NCBI GenBank assembly: GCA_947625455.1 | Contig: CANQOJ010000002.1 | Span: 1-38,987 of the forward strand | DNA length: 38,987 nucleotides | Source of the DNA: an uncultured Clostridia bacterium | Lineage (GTDB): Bacteria; Bacillota; Clostridia; Oscillospirales; Ruminococcaceae | Direction of reading: 5' to 3' | Shown: positions 334 to 38,870 of the stretch, in pieces | Position numbering within the stretch: position 1 is the first letter of the stretch | Layout of the letters: each line of letters begins with the position of its first letter | The notes under the pieces: generated by a model | What the model saw: the letters and a program-made list of their open reading frames with translations, nothing else | Database searches by the model: none | What the model was told of the DNA's origin: nothing | Program-made: the position numbers and the translations under genes

Positions 334-345
334 AAAATCAGCCCC

Positions 346-481
346 TTTTAGAAGTAAGAGATTAGAGGTAAGAGGTAAGAGTTTGGGGGAAAGGTGGATT
401 GATGAACTTAGCCTTTTAGAAGTAAGAGATTAGAGGTTAGAGATAAGAGTTTGATAGAAAAGTTGTTTGATGAACTTAACC
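346..481. repeat. Heptamer-arm repeat element E1 (two tandem ~68-bp units)
   Basis: tttta-gaagtaagagattagaggtaagaggtaagagtttg...gatgaactta at 346-413, repeated imperfectly at 414-481; internal ~7-bp periodicity (agaggta/agaggtt). Confidence 0.8.
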
Positions 482-2161: not shown

Positions 2162-2219
2162 CTTTTTTAGTAATCAATAGTGATCTTACACTTTAACTTG
2201 TTTGTTTCCTTTGCCGCGC

Positions 2220-2404
2220 AGTATACAGTGTACAGTGGAAAGTATACAGCAAAGGTATCTGCTTCGCAGATATAATTAGATTGTTTTGGAATTATAAGTG
2301 CGTATGTAATCGGTAGGTTTACGCTCTTGTAACTTCAAAACAATCAATATTGTCCGCGCCAGCGGACACCTTTGCTGTTTACTTTCCACTGTCCACTGTA
2401 TACT
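2220..2404. repeat. Heptamer-arm inverted-repeat element E2 (ACAGTGG-type arms)
   Basis: Left arm agtatacagtgtacagtggaaagtatacagcaaaggt is the near-exact reverse complement of right arm acctttgctgtttactttccactgtccactgtatact; core agattgtttt ... aaaacaatc; inner hairpins tatctgcttcgcagata and gtccgcgccagcggac. Confidence 0.9.
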
Positions 2405-3822: not shown

Positions 3823-3834
3823 AACTTGCTCCTT

Positions 3835-3898
3835 TTAGATGTAAGAGGTTAGCGCATTATCCTCCTTCGTCGGATAACGCTGTAAGAGGTTAGAGTTG
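3835..3898. repeat. Heptamer repeat element E3 with 31-bp hairpin cassette
   Basis: gtaagaggttag occurs directly repeated at 3841-3852 and 3882-3893 around agcgcattatcctccttcgtcggataacgct (3851-3881). Confidence 0.8.
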
Positions 3899-5959: not shown

Positions 5960-6107
5960 AGAAGTTAGCAGTTATTTTGTTAGATTTTAGAGATTAGAAT
6001 TTAAGTGAAATCTTACTTTGTTCAGCAAATCTTGTTTCGACTTAACTCTAGCCTCTAGCCTCTCACAGCGTTATCCGACGAAGGAGGATAATGCGCTAGC
6101 CTCTAGA
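5958..6107. repeat. Heptamer-arm element E4 with 31-bp hairpin cassette (inverted relative to E3)
   Basis: Starts ctagaagttagcag...ttagagattagaat, ends ctctagcctctagcctctcac; agcgttatccgacgaaggaggataatgcgct at 6067-6097 is the exact reverse complement of 3851-3881; ends ctagcctctag. Confidence 0.85.
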
Positions 6108-9193: not shown

Positions 9194-10606
9194 ATGAGAA
9201 AGACAAAGATTATATGTACTATCGGTCCTGCAAGCGAAAGCGAGGAAATGATAAGGGAATTGTGCAATGCGGGAATGAACGTCGCAAGACTTAACTTTTC
9301 TCACGGCACACATGAACAGCACAAAATGAAAATAGACACGATAAAAAAGGTCAGAGAAGATTTAGGACTGCCGATAGCTGTAATGCTTGACACAAAAGGT
9401 CCCGAATACCGCATAGGAACGTTTGAAAATCACAAGATAACATTGAAAGACGGCGATACGTTTACCTTTACTTCGGACGAGTGCGTCGGCGACAATTCAA
9501 GAGTTTCGGTGAGTTACAAACAGCTTGCGCAGGAAGTGAATATCGGCGACACGATACTTGTAAACAACGGACTGCTTGTGTTTAATGTAAAGGAGATTTC
9601 GGGAAACAGCGTTGTGTGTGATGTTATAGCAGGCGGGGAGATGTCTGACAAAAAGAGCATGAACTTTCCGAATGTCGTATTAAAGGGCGATTTTTTAAGC
9701 GAACAGGACAAGAACGATATTCTTTTCGGAATTGAAAACGGCGTTGACTTTATAGCCGCGTCATTTGTTTCAACAAAAGATGATGTTCAGCAGCTGAGGA
9801 CATTCCTCAATGAAAACGGCGGTGAAGATATCGACATAATAGCAAAAATCGAAAACCGCTCTGGTGTTGACAACATTGAGGAGATTTGCGAGATTGCGGA
9901 CGGGATAATGGTAGCGCGAGGAGATTTGGGAGTTGAAATTCCGTTTGTTGAAGTGCCGTCAATACAGAAGTACCTCATCAAAAAGTGCAGGCTTCTCGGA
10001 AAGCGCGTCATAACCGCAACAGAAATGCTCGAAAGCATGATAGAAAAACCGCGCCCCACAAGAGCGGAGATTTCCGATGTGGCAAACGCAGTTTATGACG
10101 GCTCGTCAGCTATAATGCTGTCGGGAGAAACAGCGGCGGGAAAGTATCCTGTTTTGGCAGTGAAGAATATGGCAGAGATAGCGGAGTGTACGGAAAACAC
10201 CATTGACTACAAAAAGCGTTTCGCAACAACCGAATACGACATAAAGAACAACATTGACGCAGTTTCCCATGCTACCTGCGCTATGGCTATCGACACCAAG
10301 GCAAAGGGCATTGTCATCAGTTCGCTTTCGGGGAGGACGGTCAGAATGGTAAGCCGTTTCAGACCGCCTGTTGACATAATCGGAATGACAACTTCGGAAA
10401 AAGCGTGGAGAAAGCTGAATTTAAGCTGGGGAGTTACGCCTGTTTTAAGCGAGGAGTTCAACTCCGTTGACGTCATGTTCTATCACGCTTTACAGCACGC
10501 TAAGAAGTATTTCGGACTGACAGCGGGAGATAACGTAGTATTAACGGGCGGTCAGACAAGCGGGAAGTCGGGAAATACCAACACTATAAGACTGGAATCC
10601 GTCTAG
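9194..10606 (+). CDS. pyk: Pyruvate kinase
   Basis: MRKTKIICTIGPAS, ARLNFSHGTHEQH, MVARGDLGVEIP, ITATEMLESMIEKPRPTRAEISDVANAVYDG. Confidence 0.97.
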   Translation: MRKTKIICTIGPASESEEMIRELCNAGMNVARLNFSHGTHEQHKMKIDTIKKVREDLGLPIAVMLDTKGPEYRIGTFENHKITLKDGDTFTFTSDECVGDNSRVSVSYKQLAQEVNIGDTILVNNGLLVFNVKEISGNSVVCDVIAGGEMSDKKSMNFPNVVLKGDFLSEQDKNDILFGIENGVDFIAASFVSTKDDVQQLRTFLNENGGEDIDIIAKIENRSGVDNIEEICEIADGIMVARGDLGVEIPFVEVPSIQKYLIKKCRLLGKRVITATEMLESMIEKPRPTRAEISDVANAVYDGSSAIMLSGETAAGKYPVLAVKNMAEIAECTENTIDYKKRFATTEYDIKNNIDAVSHATCAMAIDTKAKGIVISSLSGRTVRMVSRFRPPVDIIGMTTSEKAWRKLNLSWGVTPVLSEEFNSVDVMFYHALQHAKKYFGLTAGDNVVLTGGQTSGKSGNTNTIRLESV

Positions 10607-10771
10607 AAGCTAGAGATTAAGAGGCTAGAGGCTAGATTTAAGGTTTGGATTTAGATTGTTTTTAAATTAAAGAGCGTAAACCTATCAAGGGGTTTACGCT
10701 CTGATAATATCGATACAATCTTAATCCAAACCTTATATCTAACATCTAGCTTCTTAATTTCTAGCTTCTAG
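10603..10771. repeat. Heptamer-arm inverted-repeat element E5 (CTAGAGG-type arms)
   Basis: Left ctagaagctagagattaagaggctagaggctagatttaaggtttggatttagattg, right caatcttaatccaaaccttatatctaacatctagcttcttaatttctagcttctag; core hairpin agagcgtaaacc (10671-10682)/ggtttacgctct (10691-10702). Confidence 0.92.
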
Positions 10772-11305
10772 CAGTGCGCCCAGCACTGCCGATACGCATA
10801 TAAGCAAAATCGGTGAAACGGGCTTTTTTCTGACTGCGAGAAATATGAAGTAAAATGCCGTCAGGATTGCCGTTATAATCAGGGAATTTATGTCGGTGAA
10901 GAATGATGTTGCGGATATAAGCATGTAAATTCCCGTTGCGGTGATTATTCCCGCGATACATGGCTTTATTCCCGACAAAACCGACACTGCAACAGGCTTT
11001 TCCAAAACCTTTTTAAGCAGTACGGAAAACAGTATCATAACGGCAAATGCGGGAAGTATCACGCCGAATGTTGCGCAGACAGCGCCCAAAATGCCGCCCT
11101 GCATACTGCCTATATAAGTCGCGGTGTTTACCATTATAGGTCCGGGAGTGCTTTCGCTTATTGCAAGCATATTCGACAGCATTTCTTCGTCCATCCAGCC
11201 GTTGCGCTCAACACATTCCCTTATCAGCGGTATTGCCCCGTATCCCCCGCCGAATGTGAACAGCCCGATTTTAAAAAACTCCCACAACAACTTTAAATAT
11301 ATCAC
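10754..11305 (-). CDS. Chromate transporter, short CHR domain
   Basis: LWEFFKIGLFTFGGGYGAIPLI, ISESTPGPIMVNTATYIG. Confidence 0.92.
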   Translation of the reverse strand: MIYLKLLWEFFKIGLFTFGGGYGAIPLIRECVERNGWMDEEMLSNMLAISESTPGPIMVNTATYIGSMQGGILGAVCATFGVILPAFAVMILFSVLLKKVLEKPVAVSVLSGIKPCIAGIITATGIYMLISATSFFTDINSLIITAILTAFYFIFLAVRKKPVSPILLICVSAVLGALLEARN

Positions 11306-11880
11306 TTGTTCTCTCTCCTTTTGCGGAAGATGAACAAACCTAAAAATCCCGCGATAAATATCATATAGATTGTCGAAAAGTCAATTCCCAGAAAGTTCAG
11401 CGTAAGCATAACACTGAAAAACACTGCCGAGAAAACAATGTTTCCCGCGCGCTTTTCCTTTTCCTTAAACAGCTTTATAAGCATTTTTACGCCTGCTTGT
11501 ATAATCAGTATTGAAACGGCTATTCTTATTCCCTTGAAGGCATTTGCGATAATTTCAAACTTAAGAAAGTCCTCAAAGAACATTGAGATAAGCAGAAGTA
11601 TCACGAATGACGGCAATACTACCCCTAGCGTTGCAAGGACAGCGCCGATAATGCCCGACATTTTGTAACCGACAAACGTTGCGCAGTTAATGGCGACAGG
11701 ACCGGGCGTTGCTTCTGCAACTGCCGTCATATCGGTAAATTCGTCATGCGTCAGCCACTTTTTCTTTTCAACACACTCGCTGTCAATAAGCGAAATCATA
11801 GCATAACCCCCGCCGAATGTAAACGCGCCTATTTTAGCAAATGTCAGAAATAAATCTGGTTTAATATTCATACGCAACAC
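11302..11880 (-). CDS. Chromate transporter, short CHR domain
   Basis: LTFAKIGAFTFGGGYAMISLI, VAEATPGPVAINCATFVGYK; overlaps the downstream paralog by 4 nt. Confidence 0.92.
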   Translation of the reverse strand: MLRMNIKPDLFLTFAKIGAFTFGGGYAMISLIDSECVEKKKWLTHDEFTDMTAVAEATPGPVAINCATFVGYKMSGIIGAVLATLGVVLPSFVILLLISMFFEDFLKFEIIANAFKGIRIAVSILIIQAGVKMLIKLFKEKEKRAGNIVFSAVFFSVMLTLNFLGIDFSTIYMIFIAGFLGLFIFRKRRENK

Positions 11881-11887
11881 CTTTTTG

Positions 11888-12067
11888 CAGTATACAATGG
11901 ACAGTGTACAGTAGACAGTAGAATGTGTCCGCTAACGCGGACATTATTTAGATTGTTTTTGGAGGAAAGAGCGTAAACCAACCGAGGGGTTTACGCTCAA
12001 ATAAACTCAAAACAATCTGAATAACACCTTAGGATCTAGCCTCTAGCTTCTTAAACTCTAGCTTCTT
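11888..12067. repeat. Chimeric heptamer-arm element E6 (ACAGTGG-type left arm, CTAGAGG-type right arm)
   Basis: Left cagtatacaatggacagtgtacagtagacagtag; inner hairpin gtccgctaacgcggac; core gattgttttt...gagcgtaaacc...ggtttacgctc...aaaacaatc; right atctagcctctagcttcttaaactctagcttctt. Confidence 0.88.
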
Positions 12068-12097
12068 GTAGAAAACCTTTTTCAAAAGGTTTTCTAC
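12068..12097. repeat. Perfect 14-bp hairpin, possible terminator between lysA and the chromate transporter region
   Basis: gtagaaaacctttt-tc-aaaaggttttctac, perfect inverted repeat. Confidence 0.75.
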
Positions 12098-12114: not shown

Positions 12115-13380
12115 TTAAAGTTCGTAATTTCCGTTAAAAACGTCAAATGTTCTGAAGTAGTCGTCGGGCGTTTCCGCTCTGCGGATAAGTTTTACACTGC
12201 CGTCCGCGCGCAGGAGAAGCTCGGCGCTTCTGAGTTTTCCGTTGTAGTTATATCCCATTGAAAATCCGTGAGCGCCTGCGTCATGAATTGCCACATAATC
12301 GCCTATATCAATTTTCGGCAGCATTCTGTCAACCGCAAACTTGTCGTTGTTTTCGCAAAGTCCGCCCGTAACGTCATATTTATGGTCGCATGCGGCATCT
12401 TCCTTGCCTAACACCGTTATATGATGATACGCGCCGTATATGGCGGGGCGCATAAGGTTTGCCGCACAGGCGTCAAGTCCTATGTACTCCTTGTAGATGT
12501 GCTTCTCGCGGATTGCCTTGGCTATGAGCAATCCGTAAGGCGCAAGCATAAATCTGCCAAGCTCGGTGAATATCGCAACATCACCCATTCCCGCGGGAAC
12601 AAGGATTTTTTCATATTGCTCTCTTACTTTTTCGCCTATAATTTCAATGTCATTCGCGGGTTGATCGGGTTTGTAGGGTATGCCTACGCCGCCGCTTAGG
12701 TTGATAAACGACAGCTGAACGCCCGTTTTCTCCTTTATCTCAACGGCTGTTCTGAACAATATGCCCGCAAGAGTCGGATAATAGTCGTTGGTGAGTGTGT
12801 TTGACGCAAGAAACGCGTGCATTCCGAATTTCTTCGCGCCTTTTTCCTTTAATATGCGGTAACCCTCGATTATCTGGTCGTGAGTAAAGCCGTATTTCGC
12901 GTCCTTGGGCGTGTCCATAACATTCGGCGAGCCGTCTGTCTTGAACTCACCGCCGGGATTATAACGACAGCAGATTGTTTCGGGAATGCCCGTCAGCTTG
13001 TCAAGTACGTCAATATGCGTGAAATCGTCAAGGTTTATGATTGCGCCAAGTTCATACGCCTTTCTGAAATCCGCATCGGGGGTGGCGTTGGACGAGAACA
13101 TAATATCATGCTGTTTTGCTCCAACATCATCCGAAAGCATGAGTTCTGTTAAACTTGAACAGTCAAATCCGCAGCCCTCGCTCTGCAAAATCTTCATTAT
13201 AAACGGGTTTGGAGTAGCCTTGACTGCGAAATATTCTCTAAATCCCTTGTTCCACGAGAACGCATTTTTAAGCTTTCTCGCGTTTTCGCGTATGCCCTTT
13301 TCGTCGTAAACATAAAACGGCGTGGGGTAGGTCTTTGCTATCTCCTCAATTTGTTCCTTTGTTACAAACGGTTTTTTCAT
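12115..13380 (-). CDS. lysA: Diaminopimelate decarboxylase
   Basis: TPFYVYDEKGIRENARKLKNAF, YFAVKATPNPFIMKIL, GCGFDCSSLTELML, CCRYNPGG, DACAANLMRPAIYGAYH, DAGAHGFSMGYNYNG. ORF runs to 13437; MKKPFVTKEQ start at 13380 preferred. Confidence 0.88.
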   Translation of the reverse strand: MKKPFVTKEQIEEIAKTYPTPFYVYDEKGIRENARKLKNAFSWNKGFREYFAVKATPNPFIMKILQSEGCGFDCSSLTELMLSDDVGAKQHDIMFSSNATPDADFRKAYELGAIINLDDFTHIDVLDKLTGIPETICCRYNPGGEFKTDGSPNVMDTPKDAKYGFTHDQIIEGYRILKEKGAKKFGMHAFLASNTLTNDYYPTLAGILFRTAVEIKEKTGVQLSFINLSGGVGIPYKPDQPANDIEIIGEKVREQYEKILVPAGMGDVAIFTELGRFMLAPYGLLIAKAIREKHIYKEYIGLDACAANLMRPAIYGAYHHITVLGKEDAACDHKYDVTGGLCENNDKFAVDRMLPKIDIGDYVAIHDAGAHGFSMGYNYNGKLRSAELLLRADGSVKLIRRAETPDDYFRTFDVFNGNYEL

Positions 13381-13396
13381 TTCTGTTTTCCTTTCG

Positions 13397-14833
13397 TTAT
13401 GTGTTATCATCGCTGTCGGGCAAGGTTTCCTGCTCAATTTCAGCGAACATTTTCTTCATTGTGGGGTTTTTATATGTAAGCTTTTTTATCGTCAAATCAT
13501 CAGCTTTGTCATTGGCAAGGCGAAGATTATTTGCCGACGACAACAAGTTCTTTTTCACCTTGTTTAAATGGTCGATAGATTTGTCAATCTCCTCGATAGC
13601 AAGCTCAAACTGGTTACTTGCAAGCTGATAATTCTTTGAAAATCCGTCTTTAAATTCAAGAAGCTTTTTCTCGAAATTAGTAACGTCAATTTCCCTCTCG
13701 CTCATCTCCTTAAGCTTCTTGCGGTATTTGAGGCTTTCCCTCGCGGCGTTTCTGAGAAGCGTTATTATGGGAATGAAAAACTGCGGACGGATAACGTACA
13801 TCTTCGGATATCTGTACGACACGTCAACTATACCGTTGTTATAAAAGTCGTTGTCCGCTTCAAGCATTGAGACAAGCACGGCATATTCACAGTTTTTCTC
13901 GTTTCTGTCCTTGTCAAGTTCTTTGAAGAAATCCTCGTTTTTCTTCTTGGTTGCCGTATTGTCAGCTTCGTTTTTCATCTCAAACATTATTGAAATAAAT
14001 TCAACGTCATCTTCATAATCTCTGAAGATAAAATCGCCCTTGCTTCCCGATTTAGCGTCGTTGTCCTTTTCAAAATACGCATTCGGAAATCCCGTCATTC
14101 TGAAAGCATTGAACTGGTTCATGCAGTGCTGTTCAAGGCTTTCGCCTATCATTTTCGTTGACAGTTTCAGCTTAAAATCTTTATACTGTGCTATGCGCTC
14201 GTCCTTTTCTTTAAGCTGAAGTTCATAACTCTCTTTCATGTTCTTTTCGCTGATGATATATTCGTTTCTTATGCGTTCAATCTCGCCGTTTTTCTCGGAA
14301 ATCTCCTTTTCCTTTTCGGAAACGGCAGTTTCAATTTCAAGCTGTTTTTGCCTTGCCTCACCCTCAAGCTGTTGTTTTAATAGCGCAATTTCGCTGTCCT
14401 TTGACGCTATTTTCTTTTCGCTTTCGGTAACAGCGTCTTTTAATGCGCCTTGTTTTTCGTTTTCGGAAATTTGCAGTTTGTTTTCAAGGTCGGCTATTGT
14501 GCGCTGAAGCTCAAACAGCTTTTTTTCGCTTTCCCTTTCGCTTTCGGCAACAGCGTTTTTTAATGCGTCCTGTTTTCCGTTTTCGGAAATTTCAAGCTTG
14601 TTTTCAAGGTCGGCTATCGTGCTTTTGAGTTCAAACAACTGCTTGTCGCTTTCCATTTTGCTGTCAGCCAGCGCAAGTTTCACCGCTTGCTCTTTCTCGC
14701 TTTCAAGGCGCTGTTCACGGTCACGTATCTCCTTTTCAAACTCCTTGTCGCGGACTTGCTTTACAATTGCCGCATAACCCGATTCGTCAACTTGAAATAC
14801 CTCTCCGCACTTTGGGCATTTAATTTCCTGCAT
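13397..14833 (-). CDS. DUF2130 domain-containing coiled-coil protein
   Basis: CPKCGEVFQVDESGYAAIVKQVRDKEFEKEI N-terminus, long coiled coil, C-terminal GSKGDFIFRDYEDDVEFISIMFEMKNE. Confidence 0.88.
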   Translation of the reverse strand: MQEIKCPKCGEVFQVDESGYAAIVKQVRDKEFEKEIRDREQRLESEKEQAVKLALADSKMESDKQLFELKSTIADLENKLEISENGKQDALKNAVAESERESEKKLFELQRTIADLENKLQISENEKQGALKDAVTESEKKIASKDSEIALLKQQLEGEARQKQLEIETAVSEKEKEISEKNGEIERIRNEYIISEKNMKESYELQLKEKDERIAQYKDFKLKLSTKMIGESLEQHCMNQFNAFRMTGFPNAYFEKDNDAKSGSKGDFIFRDYEDDVEFISIMFEMKNEADNTATKKKNEDFFKELDKDRNEKNCEYAVLVSMLEADNDFYNNGIVDVSYRYPKMYVIRPQFFIPIITLLRNAARESLKYRKKLKEMSEREIDVTNFEKKLLEFKDGFSKNYQLASNQFELAIEEIDKSIDHLNKVKKNLLSSANNLRLANDKADDLTIKKLTYKNPTMKKMFAEIEQETLPDSDDNT

Positions 14834-15400: not shown

Positions 15401-15958
15401 TTAGTCAATCCCTTGTTTGCTTCTTCTGACTAATTCCTTGTATATCTCCTTGCCCATTTTATTGTATTCTTTGGCAAGTTTCGGCTGACCTAAGATTTTA
15501 TAGACCTTTGCAAGTTCCTCGCACCAGGTGACAGCACCGTGTTTGCGCTTTTTCTCCCAAGTGTCGCAATAGTCAATGCAAAACGTAAGGCAGTCTACAG
15601 CGTCCTGCAATATTTCGGGAGTGCGGTAGTTTTCTTTCGGGATAATCTCTTGAAGCGTTGTAATATAATCAAAGCGAATGTTATACGACTCCGGGCAGGT
15701 GTCAATAGCCTTGTGGTAATACGGAATACCGCGCTCTAAATCGTTTCCGAAAACAACAACCCAACAGCCGATATGGCAGTAAAACTTCGCTATCGTCTCG
15801 CGCGATTTGCCTTCGGGGTTGGGGTACTTAGCCACTAATGCTTCGCCGTCAGCTATAAACTCCGTCACCTCGTCAGCGGTTTCAAGGTCGCTGTTCCCAT
15901 ATTTTTTTCTAAACGCAACGATTTCCGCGTTCAATGCTTCAACATCATATTCCGCCAT
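15401..15958 (-). CDS. TPR-like hypothetical protein, paralog 3 of 3
   Basis: GCWVVVFGNDLERGIPYYHKAIDTCPESYNIRFDYITTLQEIIPKENYRTPEILQDAVDCLTFCI; similar to the next two ORFs. Confidence 0.82.
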   Translation of the reverse strand: MAEYDVEALNAEIVAFRKKYGNSDLETADEVTEFIADGEALVAKYPNPEGKSRETIAKFYCHIGCWVVVFGNDLERGIPYYHKAIDTCPESYNIRFDYITTLQEIIPKENYRTPEILQDAVDCLTFCIDYCDTWEKKRKHGAVTWCEELAKVYKILGQPKLAKEYNKMGKEIYKELVRRSKQGID

Positions 15959-15970
15959 TTTATGTTCCTT

Positions 15971-16591
15971 TCATCTGCCGCCAAATATTCTCTTAATAAA
16001 TGCTGATATACGCATGATAAATCTGATGAAGAAGTTGGGTTCATTTTCTTGTTCAGCAAGTTCTATCGCCATTTTCGCAGACATCTTTTCACATTCGCGG
16101 GCTTTTTCTTCCTGACCTGCAATATGGTAGACGTTTGCAAGGTCCATGTATCTAAGGTCAATGCTTCGTTTTCTCTTTAGCTCCAAAGTATCGCTTGCGT
16201 CTATGCAGAATGTAAGGCAGTCAATCGCGTCCTGCACAAGTTCGGGAGTTGAATATTTTTCATTCGGGATTATCTCCTCAAGAGTTGTGAAGTACTCAAA
16301 ATGAACATCATACGAATCGGGGCAAAGTTCAAGCGCTTTGTGATAATACGGTATGCCTTGTTCAAGGTCTTGCCCGAAAACCACCGTCCAGCATCCTATA
16401 TGCTGACAGAATTTCCCAAGCCGCTCGCGGGCTTCGCCCTCAGGATTTGGGTATTTTGAAAGAATTGCGTCAGCGTCCTCAAGATACCAACCGAGGAATT
16501 TTTCGTCTTCAAGCTCTCTGCCAACGGTTTTATACTTCTTACTAAAGCGGGCAAGCTCTGCGCTCAGGGCTTCAATATTGTTTTCGGTCAT
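15971..16591 (-). CDS. TPR-like hypothetical protein, paralog 2 of 3
   Basis: GCWTVVFGQDLEQGIPYYHKALELCPDSYDVHFEYFTTLEEIIPNEKYSTPELVQDAIDCLTFCI. Confidence 0.82.
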   Translation of the reverse strand: MTENNIEALSAELARFSKKYKTVGRELEDEKFLGWYLEDADAILSKYPNPEGEARERLGKFCQHIGCWTVVFGQDLEQGIPYYHKALELCPDSYDVHFEYFTTLEEIIPNEKYSTPELVQDAIDCLTFCIDASDTLELKRKRSIDLRYMDLANVYHIAGQEEKARECEKMSAKMAIELAEQENEPNFFIRFIMRISAFIKRIFGGR

Positions 16592-16603
16592 TTTATGTTC
16601 CTT

Positions 16604-17224
16604 TCATCTGTTATCGGTTTTCTTGAACAACGGCGAGAATATGCGCTTGAAAACATTTGGCTTCTTTGTAACGCCAAGTTCAAACGCGTATATTTCAAGT
16701 TCAGCTTTCTGCGCCTCTCTTCCGCAGCGACAGCCGTCTTCATGCTGCCCCGCTATGTCGTACACCCACGCCAGCTCCCACCAACGGCGGTCAATTTTAT
16801 ATTCCGCCTTAAGCGCGGGGGTATTGCAGTAGTTTATGCAGAATGTAAGGCAGTCAATTGCGTCCTGTATAAGTTCGGGCGTTGAATATTTCTTGTCGGG
16901 AATGATTTCCTTAAGCGTTGTGAAGTACTCAAAGTGAATATCCCACGAATCGGGACAGAGTTCAAGCGCCTTGTGATAATACGGTATGCCATGTTCAAGG
17001 TCGTTGCCGAAAACCACCGTCCAACAGCCTAAAAAATTGCAGAATTTCCCTAACTCCCCGCGGATTTCTCCCTCTGGATTTGGGTATTCGGCAACTATCG
17101 CGTCCGCGTCTGCAAGGTATTTACTGCGAATGTTATCATCTTTAAGCTTTTCGTCAATGTCTTTGTACTTCTCGTGAAACTCGGCAATTTCGGAGTTCAG
17201 AGTTTCAATGTTAATTTCGGGCAT
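16604..17224 (-). CDS. TPR-like hypothetical protein, paralog 1 of 3
   Basis: GCWTVVFGNDLEHGIPYYHKALELCPDSWDIHFEYFTTLKEIIPDKKYSTPELIQDAIDCLTFCI. Confidence 0.82.
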   Translation of the reverse strand: MPEINIETLNSEIAEFHEKYKDIDEKLKDDNIRSKYLADADAIVAEYPNPEGEIRGELGKFCNFLGCWTVVFGNDLEHGIPYYHKALELCPDSWDIHFEYFTTLKEIIPDKKYSTPELIQDAIDCLTFCINYCNTPALKAEYKIDRRWWELAWVYDIAGQHEDGCRCGREAQKAELEIYAFELGVTKKPNVFKRIFSPLFKKTDNR

Positions 17225-23160: not shown

Positions 23161-23166
23161 TACTTA

Positions 23167-23327
23167 CTAGAAGTTAGAGATTAAGAGGCTAGAGGCTAGA
23201 TAAAGGTAGAATTTATCAGATTGTTTTTAAATTAAAACAGCGTAGACCACCAATTGGTCTACGCTGTTTGGGTTTAAAACAATCTGAATAATTCCTTATA
23301 ATCTAGCCTCTTAATCTCTAGTCTCTA
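23167..23327. repeat. Heptamer-arm inverted-repeat element E7 (CTAGAGG-type arms)
   Basis: Left ctagaagttagagattaagaggctagaggctaga; core cagattgttttt...aaacagcgtagacc (23235-23248)...ggtctacgctgttt (23256-23269)...aaaacaatctg; right atctagcctcttaatctctagtctctag. Confidence 0.92.
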
Positions 23328-23900
23328 GTTTTTAGCCATTAGCTCTTTTCCTGCATTCCATGCTTTTCCGACTTGTTCGCCCGAAATATAATAGCCGTTT
23401 TGGAACTGGTCGAAAATAAGCGCGTTAAGTTTGCCAGCGTCAATCTTACCGTTTTCGGAAAGCACGGTTTCTTCCGCCGCGGTATTTACTATCTTGCCGA
23501 CAATGCAGTACATGCTCTCCGTTTTAACAACTTCCGCAAGTTCGCACTCCATAACCACAGGAAATTCCTCGATAACAGGCGCGTCAACAAATCCGCTCTT
23601 AACCGCCTTACAGCCCGACTTTTCAAACTTGTCGGGCATTGTGTTTCCGCTCGCTATGCCAAAAAAGTCAGCGGGTTTTATATGCTCTTTGTCGGCAAGG
23701 CTTACGGTAAACGCTTTGCGTTTAAGCAAATTCTGCGTTGTCTTATGGTCCTCGTCAATGAACAGCGCGATTTTATCCATGGCGCATATCATGCCCCATG
23801 CGGCGTTCATAACGTTTACCTTGTCGTTTTCTCCGTATGCCGCAACCATAAGCACGGGCATAGGATAAACTGCGGGTATTGCTCCTAAATTCTTCTTCAT
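23325..23900 (-). CDS. Flavin reductase family protein
   Basis: YPMPVLMVAAYGENDKVNVMNAAWGMICAMDKIALFIDEDHKTTQNLLKRKAFTVSLAD. Confidence 0.88.
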   Translation of the reverse strand: MKKNLGAIPAVYPMPVLMVAAYGENDKVNVMNAAWGMICAMDKIALFIDEDHKTTQNLLKRKAFTVSLADKEHIKPADFFGIASGNTMPDKFEKSGCKAVKSGFVDAPVIEEFPVVMECELAEVVKTESMYCIVGKIVNTAAEETVLSENGKIDAGKLNALIFDQFQNGYYISGEQVGKAWNAGKELMAKN

Positions 23901-38425: not shown

Positions 38426-38751
38426 GTGAATTGACCTCCCTTTTCAAAAAAATATTTCCGCAAAAAATTTGCGTTATATTCATTGTAATATGTTTGTAAA
38501 GAAATGTCAAGCCGTTTCTCAATCTTTTGTATAAAGTTATTATTTTTTCAAAGAACTTTTGGTGATTATAAACAGTAACGATTAGCAGTTAAAACTTTCA
38601 TGCGGTTTTATTGCGCAAATATCGGGTAAAACGGAGTGTAACAAGCGAAAACGCGCTTTGTGGATTATATTCAAAACCAACCCCGAATTTTCGGCAAAAA
38701 GCGCATGACATTCAACCGTGCTGACAAGCGGGTTTTAGACAACTTCCTAAA

Positions 38752-38870
38752 AGAGAAAAGAGGCTAGAACCAAAATTCTAACCTCTTACCTCTAACATCT
38801 TACTTCTAAAAGAAGAAAGAGGCTGGAATCAAAATTCTAGCCTCTAACCTCTTAATTTCTAGCATCTAGC
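38752..38870. repeat. Heptamer-arm element E8 (two ~59-bp tandem hairpin units)
   Basis: gaggctagaa-ccaaaa-ttctaacctc and gaggctggaa-tcaaaa-ttctagcctc, each followed by ctctaac/cttaatt/tctaaca heptamers. Confidence 0.82.

Follow-up and report, generated by a model that had tools for sequence, protein, structure and literature searches.

A palindromic element with two arm types is a mosaic copy of a modular repeat family in an uncultured Clostridia bacterium

In E6, a single palindromic element of about 180 bp (11888-12067), an A half on the left and a B half on the right meet in one intact core. The element lies in the window, by which we mean the whole 38,987-bp contig analysed here, taken from a 2.3-Mb draft genome of a gut Clostridia bacterium in 269 contigs (G000). 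E6 is a mosaic copy in a family of dispersed, non-coding, intergenic palindromic repeats. The reading that we favor, with a probability of about 0.6, is that E6 started as an A/A element and then had its core and right half exchanged in a non-reciprocal replacement, and that the family consists of selfish or neutral DNA that is moved mainly by the host or by an unseen enzyme. The two unrelated arms of E6 would then be explained because arms, hairpins and cores are swapped between family copies.

Architecture and folding of E6

From left to right, a complete element of the family is made up of a heptamer arm, a side hairpin or an inner module, the AGATTGTTTT box, a loop, the central hairpin, a second loop, the second box, a side hairpin and the other arm. 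In E6 the left arm is of A type, also described as AGTGGAC type (11888..11921, plus strand), with the heptamers AGTATAC, AATGGAC, AGTGTAC and AGTAGAC, and is followed by the side hairpin TGTCCGC(TAAC)GCGGACA (11926..11943, plus strand) and the left conserved box AGATTGTTTT (11950..11959, plus strand). The central hairpin GAGCGTAAACC/GGTTTACGCTC (11969..11998, no strand assigned) is flanked by loops, and the right conserved box AAAACAATCT (12009..12018, minus strand) completes a palindromic type I core of 69 bp that contains both boxes (11950-12018). On the right, the inner module GAATAACACCTTAGG of the B half (12019..12033, minus strand) occupies the place where a side hairpin would be, and similar modules are found in other B halves. 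The right arm is of B type and consists of CTAGAGG-like heptamers in reverse complement (12034..12067, minus strand). A palindrome, GTAGAAAACCTTTTTCAAAAGGTTTTCTAC (12068..12097, no strand assigned), adjoins the B arm and is absent from the corresponding place in the related genomes G007 and G010. E6 is located between a chromate transporter gene (chrA; 11302-11880, minus strand) on its left and a lysA-like decarboxylase gene of the ornithine/DAP/arginine family (12115-13437, minus strand) on its right.

The earlier note had described an ACAGTGG-type arm on the left and a CTAGAGG-type arm on the right of E6, and the sequence of 11888-12067 reads as it was quoted. The elements used for comparison carry matched arms: E2 (2219..2404, type I core) is A/A, and E5 (10603..10771) and E7 (23166..23330) are B/B, all three with no strand assigned. 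The same note had contrasted the GTCCGC hairpin on the left in E6 with that on the right in E2. The positions are correct, but the contrast was overstated, as E2 has side hairpins on both sides (ATCTGC-TTC-GCAGAT on the left and GTCCGC-GCCA-GCGGAC on the right); because side-hairpin sequence varies freely, the difference in side is not meaningful alone.

The folding of the elements is not due to chance. E2 as RNA has a folding energy of -103 kcal/mol (z = -16.9), and E5 folded as DNA has a z of -13.7. For E6 the value is -5.4, and folding is limited to the core and the side hairpin because its two arms cannot pair. Covariation was pronounced in both hairpin types. The central hairpin, compared over 43 cores, shows 11 cells that are altered on both of its sides, as compared with 3.8 after shuffling, and in the side hairpin of 22 A halves the corresponding values were 19 and 4.9; in neither case did any of 500 shuffles reach the observed count. 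Since covariation lies above the shuffled controls, the hairpins are kept as hairpins while their sequence changes.

Heptamer arrays also occur alone in the window. A solo C-type array with a nested 27-nt hairpin, GCATTATCCTCCTTCGTCGGATAACGC, is present at 3828..3895 (plus strand), and a solo B-type array at 6041..6104 (minus strand) contains the same nested hairpin. Solo C-type arrays are found at 341..479 (plus strand), where the first units are kept at the G010 orthologue, and B/C arrays without a core at 38751..38870 (no strand assigned). The pyruvate kinase gene has its TAG stop within the left arm of E5, which begins at 10603. This stop is inside a heptamer array in G000, G002, G005 and G010, and the heptamer sequences differ (orthologues L102-L104). 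Near the window center, tandem paralogous genes form repeats of about 630 bp (D1; 15401-17224). No match above the Rfam gathering score was found in the window.

Distribution of the family and assortment of its modules

A core pattern gave 120 matches in G000 and none in the reversed control. The same pattern matched two to five times in four of 36 genomes of the same genus, and 0 times among 24 genomes of other families. An A-half model, comprising arm, side hairpin and box, reached much further when searched across 37 genomes: at least 132 copies were found in G000, and from 122 to at least 132 in each of G002, G005, G007 and G010. Six further species have 19 to 76, nine more have a few at most, and 17 of the 37 genomes have none. 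In relatives, these A arms and boxes enclose other cores, namely core II (80 nt, GTGTGC) in G002, G005, G007 and G010, and a core of about 50 nt in G025 and in a rabbit MAG. Two cores (L054:133-201 and L055:3593-3661) resemble hybrids of core I and core II, with GCACAC/GTGTGC on one side and GCGTA/TACG on the other. None of 50 cores overlaps a long ORF in sequence that is 82% coding, and 40% of the cores lie between convergent genes as compared with 12% of other gaps (p = 0.0016).

For the assortment of modules, 75 elements were fetched from G000 and the 50 with both boxes were analysed; the counts are biased towards core I because the loci were collected via the core I pattern. Two arms could be classified in 44 of the 50, after seven automatic arm-class assignments had been changed on reading the sequences: 30 copies are A/A, six B/B, six A/B (E6 included) and two A/C. 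The mosaicism of E6 is thus not unique, since segmentation into modules gives eight mixed copies among 44. Free assortment predicts 16.0 +/- 2.2, however, so that mixed copies, though common, are rarer than expected (p = 6e-4). Arm type is partly linked and not freely exchangeable, and the fact that mixed arms are half as common as under free assortment indicates that elements often move as a whole, or with both arms at once. Linkage between the two sides was also found for the outer end class (alike in 24 of 30, 17.4 expected, p = 0.002).

The side-hairpin class on the left is independent of that on the right, with 13 of 30 copies alike against 13.6 expected, and among B arms seven have an A-like side hairpin and 12 have none. 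In A/A elements, similarity of the cores is uncorrelated with similarity of the flanks (Mantel r = 0.08, p = 0.17), and no correlation was found between left and right flanks (r = 0.07, p = 0.14) or between a flank and its adjacent loop (r = 0.015, p = 0.33). Pairs of young copies show this most clearly. The cores of e2 (L009) and e21 (L038) are identical at 68 of 69 positions, and their left halves are C-type and A-type, respectively; those of e15 (L025) and e70 (L076) are 96% identical, with right halves of A and C type, respectively. In the pairs e34/e35 and e65/e67 one flank is common (91-94%) and the other divergent (65-73%). Between cores, side hairpins and arms, linkage is near equilibrium. 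Fast evolution of the heptamer arms could also erode the correlation between core and arm, although it could not change arm type. The proposal that arms, inner hairpins and cores are exchangeable cassettes is supported, with the limit that arm type is partly linked. Co-evolution of an element's two arms driven by pairing was considered and rejected, as similarity within elements (0.546) shows little excess over that between elements (0.483; variable columns, p = 0.036).

Orthologous loci and the origin of E6

The genes that flank E6 are in the same order in G007 and G010. In G007 the spacer between chrA and lysA holds an A/A element with core II, whose left arm starts where that of E6 does, at the same base after a conserved CCTTTT. 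In G010 the spacer holds a truncated right half of A type. The comparison of orthologous loci that the earlier note had called for thus places an A/A-type element and an A-type remnant at the E6 site. At this site the right half is of A type in both relatives, and core I together with the B half is the form seen only in G000. The left half of E6 is 90% identical to halves of G007 and G005, against 88% for the best match in its own genome, a weak hint that it may be an old resident.

B arms are mostly free of cores in relatives. In 625 kb of G010, 74 of 77 B arms are solo arrays and three are joined to a box, and the core flanks there comprise 13 A/A, one A/B and no B/B. In the window, five of ten B arms are joined to a box, as against the three of 77 in G010 (Fisher p = 3e-4), and in all fetched G000 loci the fraction is 35 of 71. 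At the E5 site, G002, G005 and G010 have only a solo heptamer array, located at the stop codon of the gene. It seems that B arrays came to be used as arms in the G000 lineage.

Given the A-type element at this site in relatives and the mosaic copies elsewhere, E6 is best read as a resident A/A element altered non-reciprocally. In the G000 lineage, the resident would have lost its core and right half to a replacement whose exchange point may lie inside or beside the AGATTGTTTT box or the core, common to all types. The replacement was probably driven by template switching during replication, or by gene conversion, perhaps single-stranded, between hairpin-folded copies. The new right half would derive from B arms, most of which are solo heptamer arrays in relatives. 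The family itself appears to be selfish or neutral DNA, with movement and remodelling presumably mainly through host replication and repair or through an unseen enzyme, and with elements tolerated mostly at gene 3' ends. The earlier suggestion of recombination or template switching between copies is supported by the mosaics and the orthologous loci as far as exchange, by either route, is concerned.

E6 might instead have arrived as a ready-made A/B chimera, by MITE-like transposition with an unseen enzyme, and have replaced or missed the old element. We regard this as possible but rather doubtful. Such an arrival would suit the strong dispersal, the intergenic placement and the species bias of the family, as well as two other chimeras, e30 and e69, whose loci contain no such element in three or more of the four relatives compared. 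On the other hand, the E6 site is already taken in G007, by an A-type element, and in G010, by a remnant, the left junction with G007 is at the same base, and the way in which the chimera itself was formed would be left unexplained. Nor were common mobilising enzymes found where the elements are richest. The search covered four families. A six-frame search of G000, G002, G005, G007, G009, G010 and G025 gave no match to the Y1 transposase (PF01797, RAYT), and neither a reverse transcriptase (RVT_1, PF00078) nor an IS256-type transposase (PF00872) was found in these draft genomes; DDE_Tnp_1 (PF01609) was found among them only in G000, once, and thus in none of the richest relatives. Retro-copying by a resident reverse transcriptase was rejected on the lack of RVT_1 in G000 and the six relatives searched. 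Orthologous sites without an element exist; the relatives are only about 80-85% identical to G000 in genes, for which reason intergenic sites have diverged, and at these sites neither an exact breakpoint nor a target duplication was readable. A second insertion at E6's place in G000 is still conceivable.

The joining of an A half to a pre-existing solo B array, in two adjacent independent events, is improbable. Solo B arrays are indeed common near gene ends, as the 74 in 625 kb of G010 attest, yet no B array is present at the E6 site in G007 or G010. E6 has one intact 69-bp core with both boxes, and its B half extends without loss to the box and includes the inner module. Polarity towards the core is canonical in all arms read, and polarity and spacing are canonical in E6 and in all mixed copies; eight correct polarities of eight by chance has p = 0.004. 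Core integrity, polarity and the complete B half led us to reject two adjacent insertions, which the earlier note had named, together with matched arms in all other copies, as what would speak against its view; other copies are mixed as well. About as improbable is reciprocal recombination between dispersed copies, in which chimeras would mark breakpoints of chromosome rearrangement. The core sequence is common to many copies, and the flanks of L056 and L068 are adjacent in G010 and G005 but apart in G000, but E6, e30 and e69 are in conserved gene order in relatives. The unbroken synteny at these three chimeras speaks against reciprocal exchange there, and with e30 and e69 in such context an exchange between loci is not needed. 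A short-read misjoin of two repeats in a MAG of 269 contigs is hardly credible. Contigs often end in repeats, but the 180-bp E6 lies between unique syntenic genes, mosaic copies are frequent, and an A/B mosaic is also present in the independent assembly of a relative (G010 L142).

Related repeat systems and nested palindromes

The nearest known kinds of repeat are the Nostoc SDRs in heptamer arrays, pneumococcal BOX, REPINs and MITEs. The Nostoc SDRs, which Elhai and colleagues reportedly described in 2008 in Genome Res., are said to be small repeats inserted into heptameric tandem repeats. They are reported as hairpins of 21-27 nt with compensatory changes, nested in one another and limited to one clade. 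The present family is alike in its small hairpins with compensatory changes, placed in heptamer arrays, nested and clade-limited, a likeness of architecture. It differs in that it is clostridial and its sequences are unrelated, and in that its heptamer arrays also form the two inverted, paired arms of a larger unit, which has boxes and whose cores are exchangeable. SDR5 insertion from the Nostoc work is cited in PMC4390886, and the Nostoc study is cited there and in PMC3116915.

Pneumococcal BOX, built of boxA, boxB and boxC, is likewise modular, intergenic, folded, below about 640 bp, species-biased and thought to be parasitic, and terminal inverted repeats and target duplications are known for it (PMC3049150). 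BOX varies mainly in the presence and number of modules, whereas the present family exchanges arm type, side hairpin and core. REPINs and GTAG REPs with RAYT share two inverted hairpin-bearing units around a spacer, an arrangement that the A/A elements have, as well as single units and intergenic placement (PMC3116915, PMC3733652). Unlike REPINs, the present family has no Y1/RAYT gene in G000 or in the element-rich relatives, its units measure 70-80 nt, and its arms are heptameric. A RAYT-mobilised REPIN was rejected, as no Y1 was found in G000 and six relatives. Bacterial MITEs (Correia/NEMIS, ERIC, RUP) are also non-coding, dispersed, inverted-repeat elements, likely non-autonomous, but the arms of the present family need not match: the arm type is the same on both sides in 36 of 44 copies and different in eight. 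No parent transposon was identified at the two loci with widely spaced halves that were read. An autonomous element between such halves (L126, L127; G010 C40, G005 C8) was discarded, since the ORFs there are host-like only. E6 works like a MITE or a REPIN with exchangeable ends, but by the Y1 test it is not a REPIN.

A question of long standing is how very small bacterial repeats such as SDR, BOX and REP are able to move and to diversify while encoding nothing. Within a single genus, some species here have over 130 half elements and others have none; the same arms surround different cores, arrays stand alone or are captured, and cores that are nearly identical bear different arms. With this range in one genus and common mobilising enzymes not found, host-driven cassette exchange becomes testable. 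We suggest, tentatively, that template switching during replication, at the 10-bp boxes that copies have in common, might allow modular palindromic repeats to spread and reshuffle with no transposase or reverse transcriptase dedicated to them. Arms, hairpins and cores would then each evolve as a cassette that replicates separately, and solo heptamer arrays would be captured as new arms.

A further level of nesting is seen in a 25-29-nt hairpin, GCATTATCCGCC..GGCGGATAACGC and variants, with 29 copies in 268 kb. It occurs in A arms, B/C arms and side-hairpin loops, 24 of the 29 being clearly in heptamer arms; within arms its orientation and heptamer phase are constant, with one and the same sequence present in both A and B/C arms. 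This SDR-like hairpin is present in the window at 3851-3879 and 6059-6087, and also in L016, L017, L052, L055, L061, L069, L072 and others. In L009, L024, L027, L038:6622, L040 and L076, C-type arrays (GTAAGAG) begin immediately behind the 5' half of a central hairpin that belongs to another element, as though they had been inserted into the loop of that hairpin. Other palindromes are nested inside cores. A high-copy palindrome of about 190 bp (..CGCTCCGAGGCGGCGAAAC..GTTTCGCCGCC..) is inside the cores e13, e19 and e68 (L023, L037, L074), and it also occurs in the G007 locus L160, at the site of the G000 element e69. A high-copy repeat of about 130 bp (L075:1-76 and L021:1-55) is present in dozens of copies in G002, G005, G007 and G010, and G000 contigs end there. 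The flanks of L056 and L068 each end in a half element in G000 (compare G010 L145:7316-7385), which may point to a rearrangement at this repeat or to a large insertion there. The right half of e29 is split by a palindrome of about 140 bp (L042 near 2059-2250), and the repeated ACATTCACGAAGTGAATACCA that flanks this palindrome is possibly the target duplication of another element.
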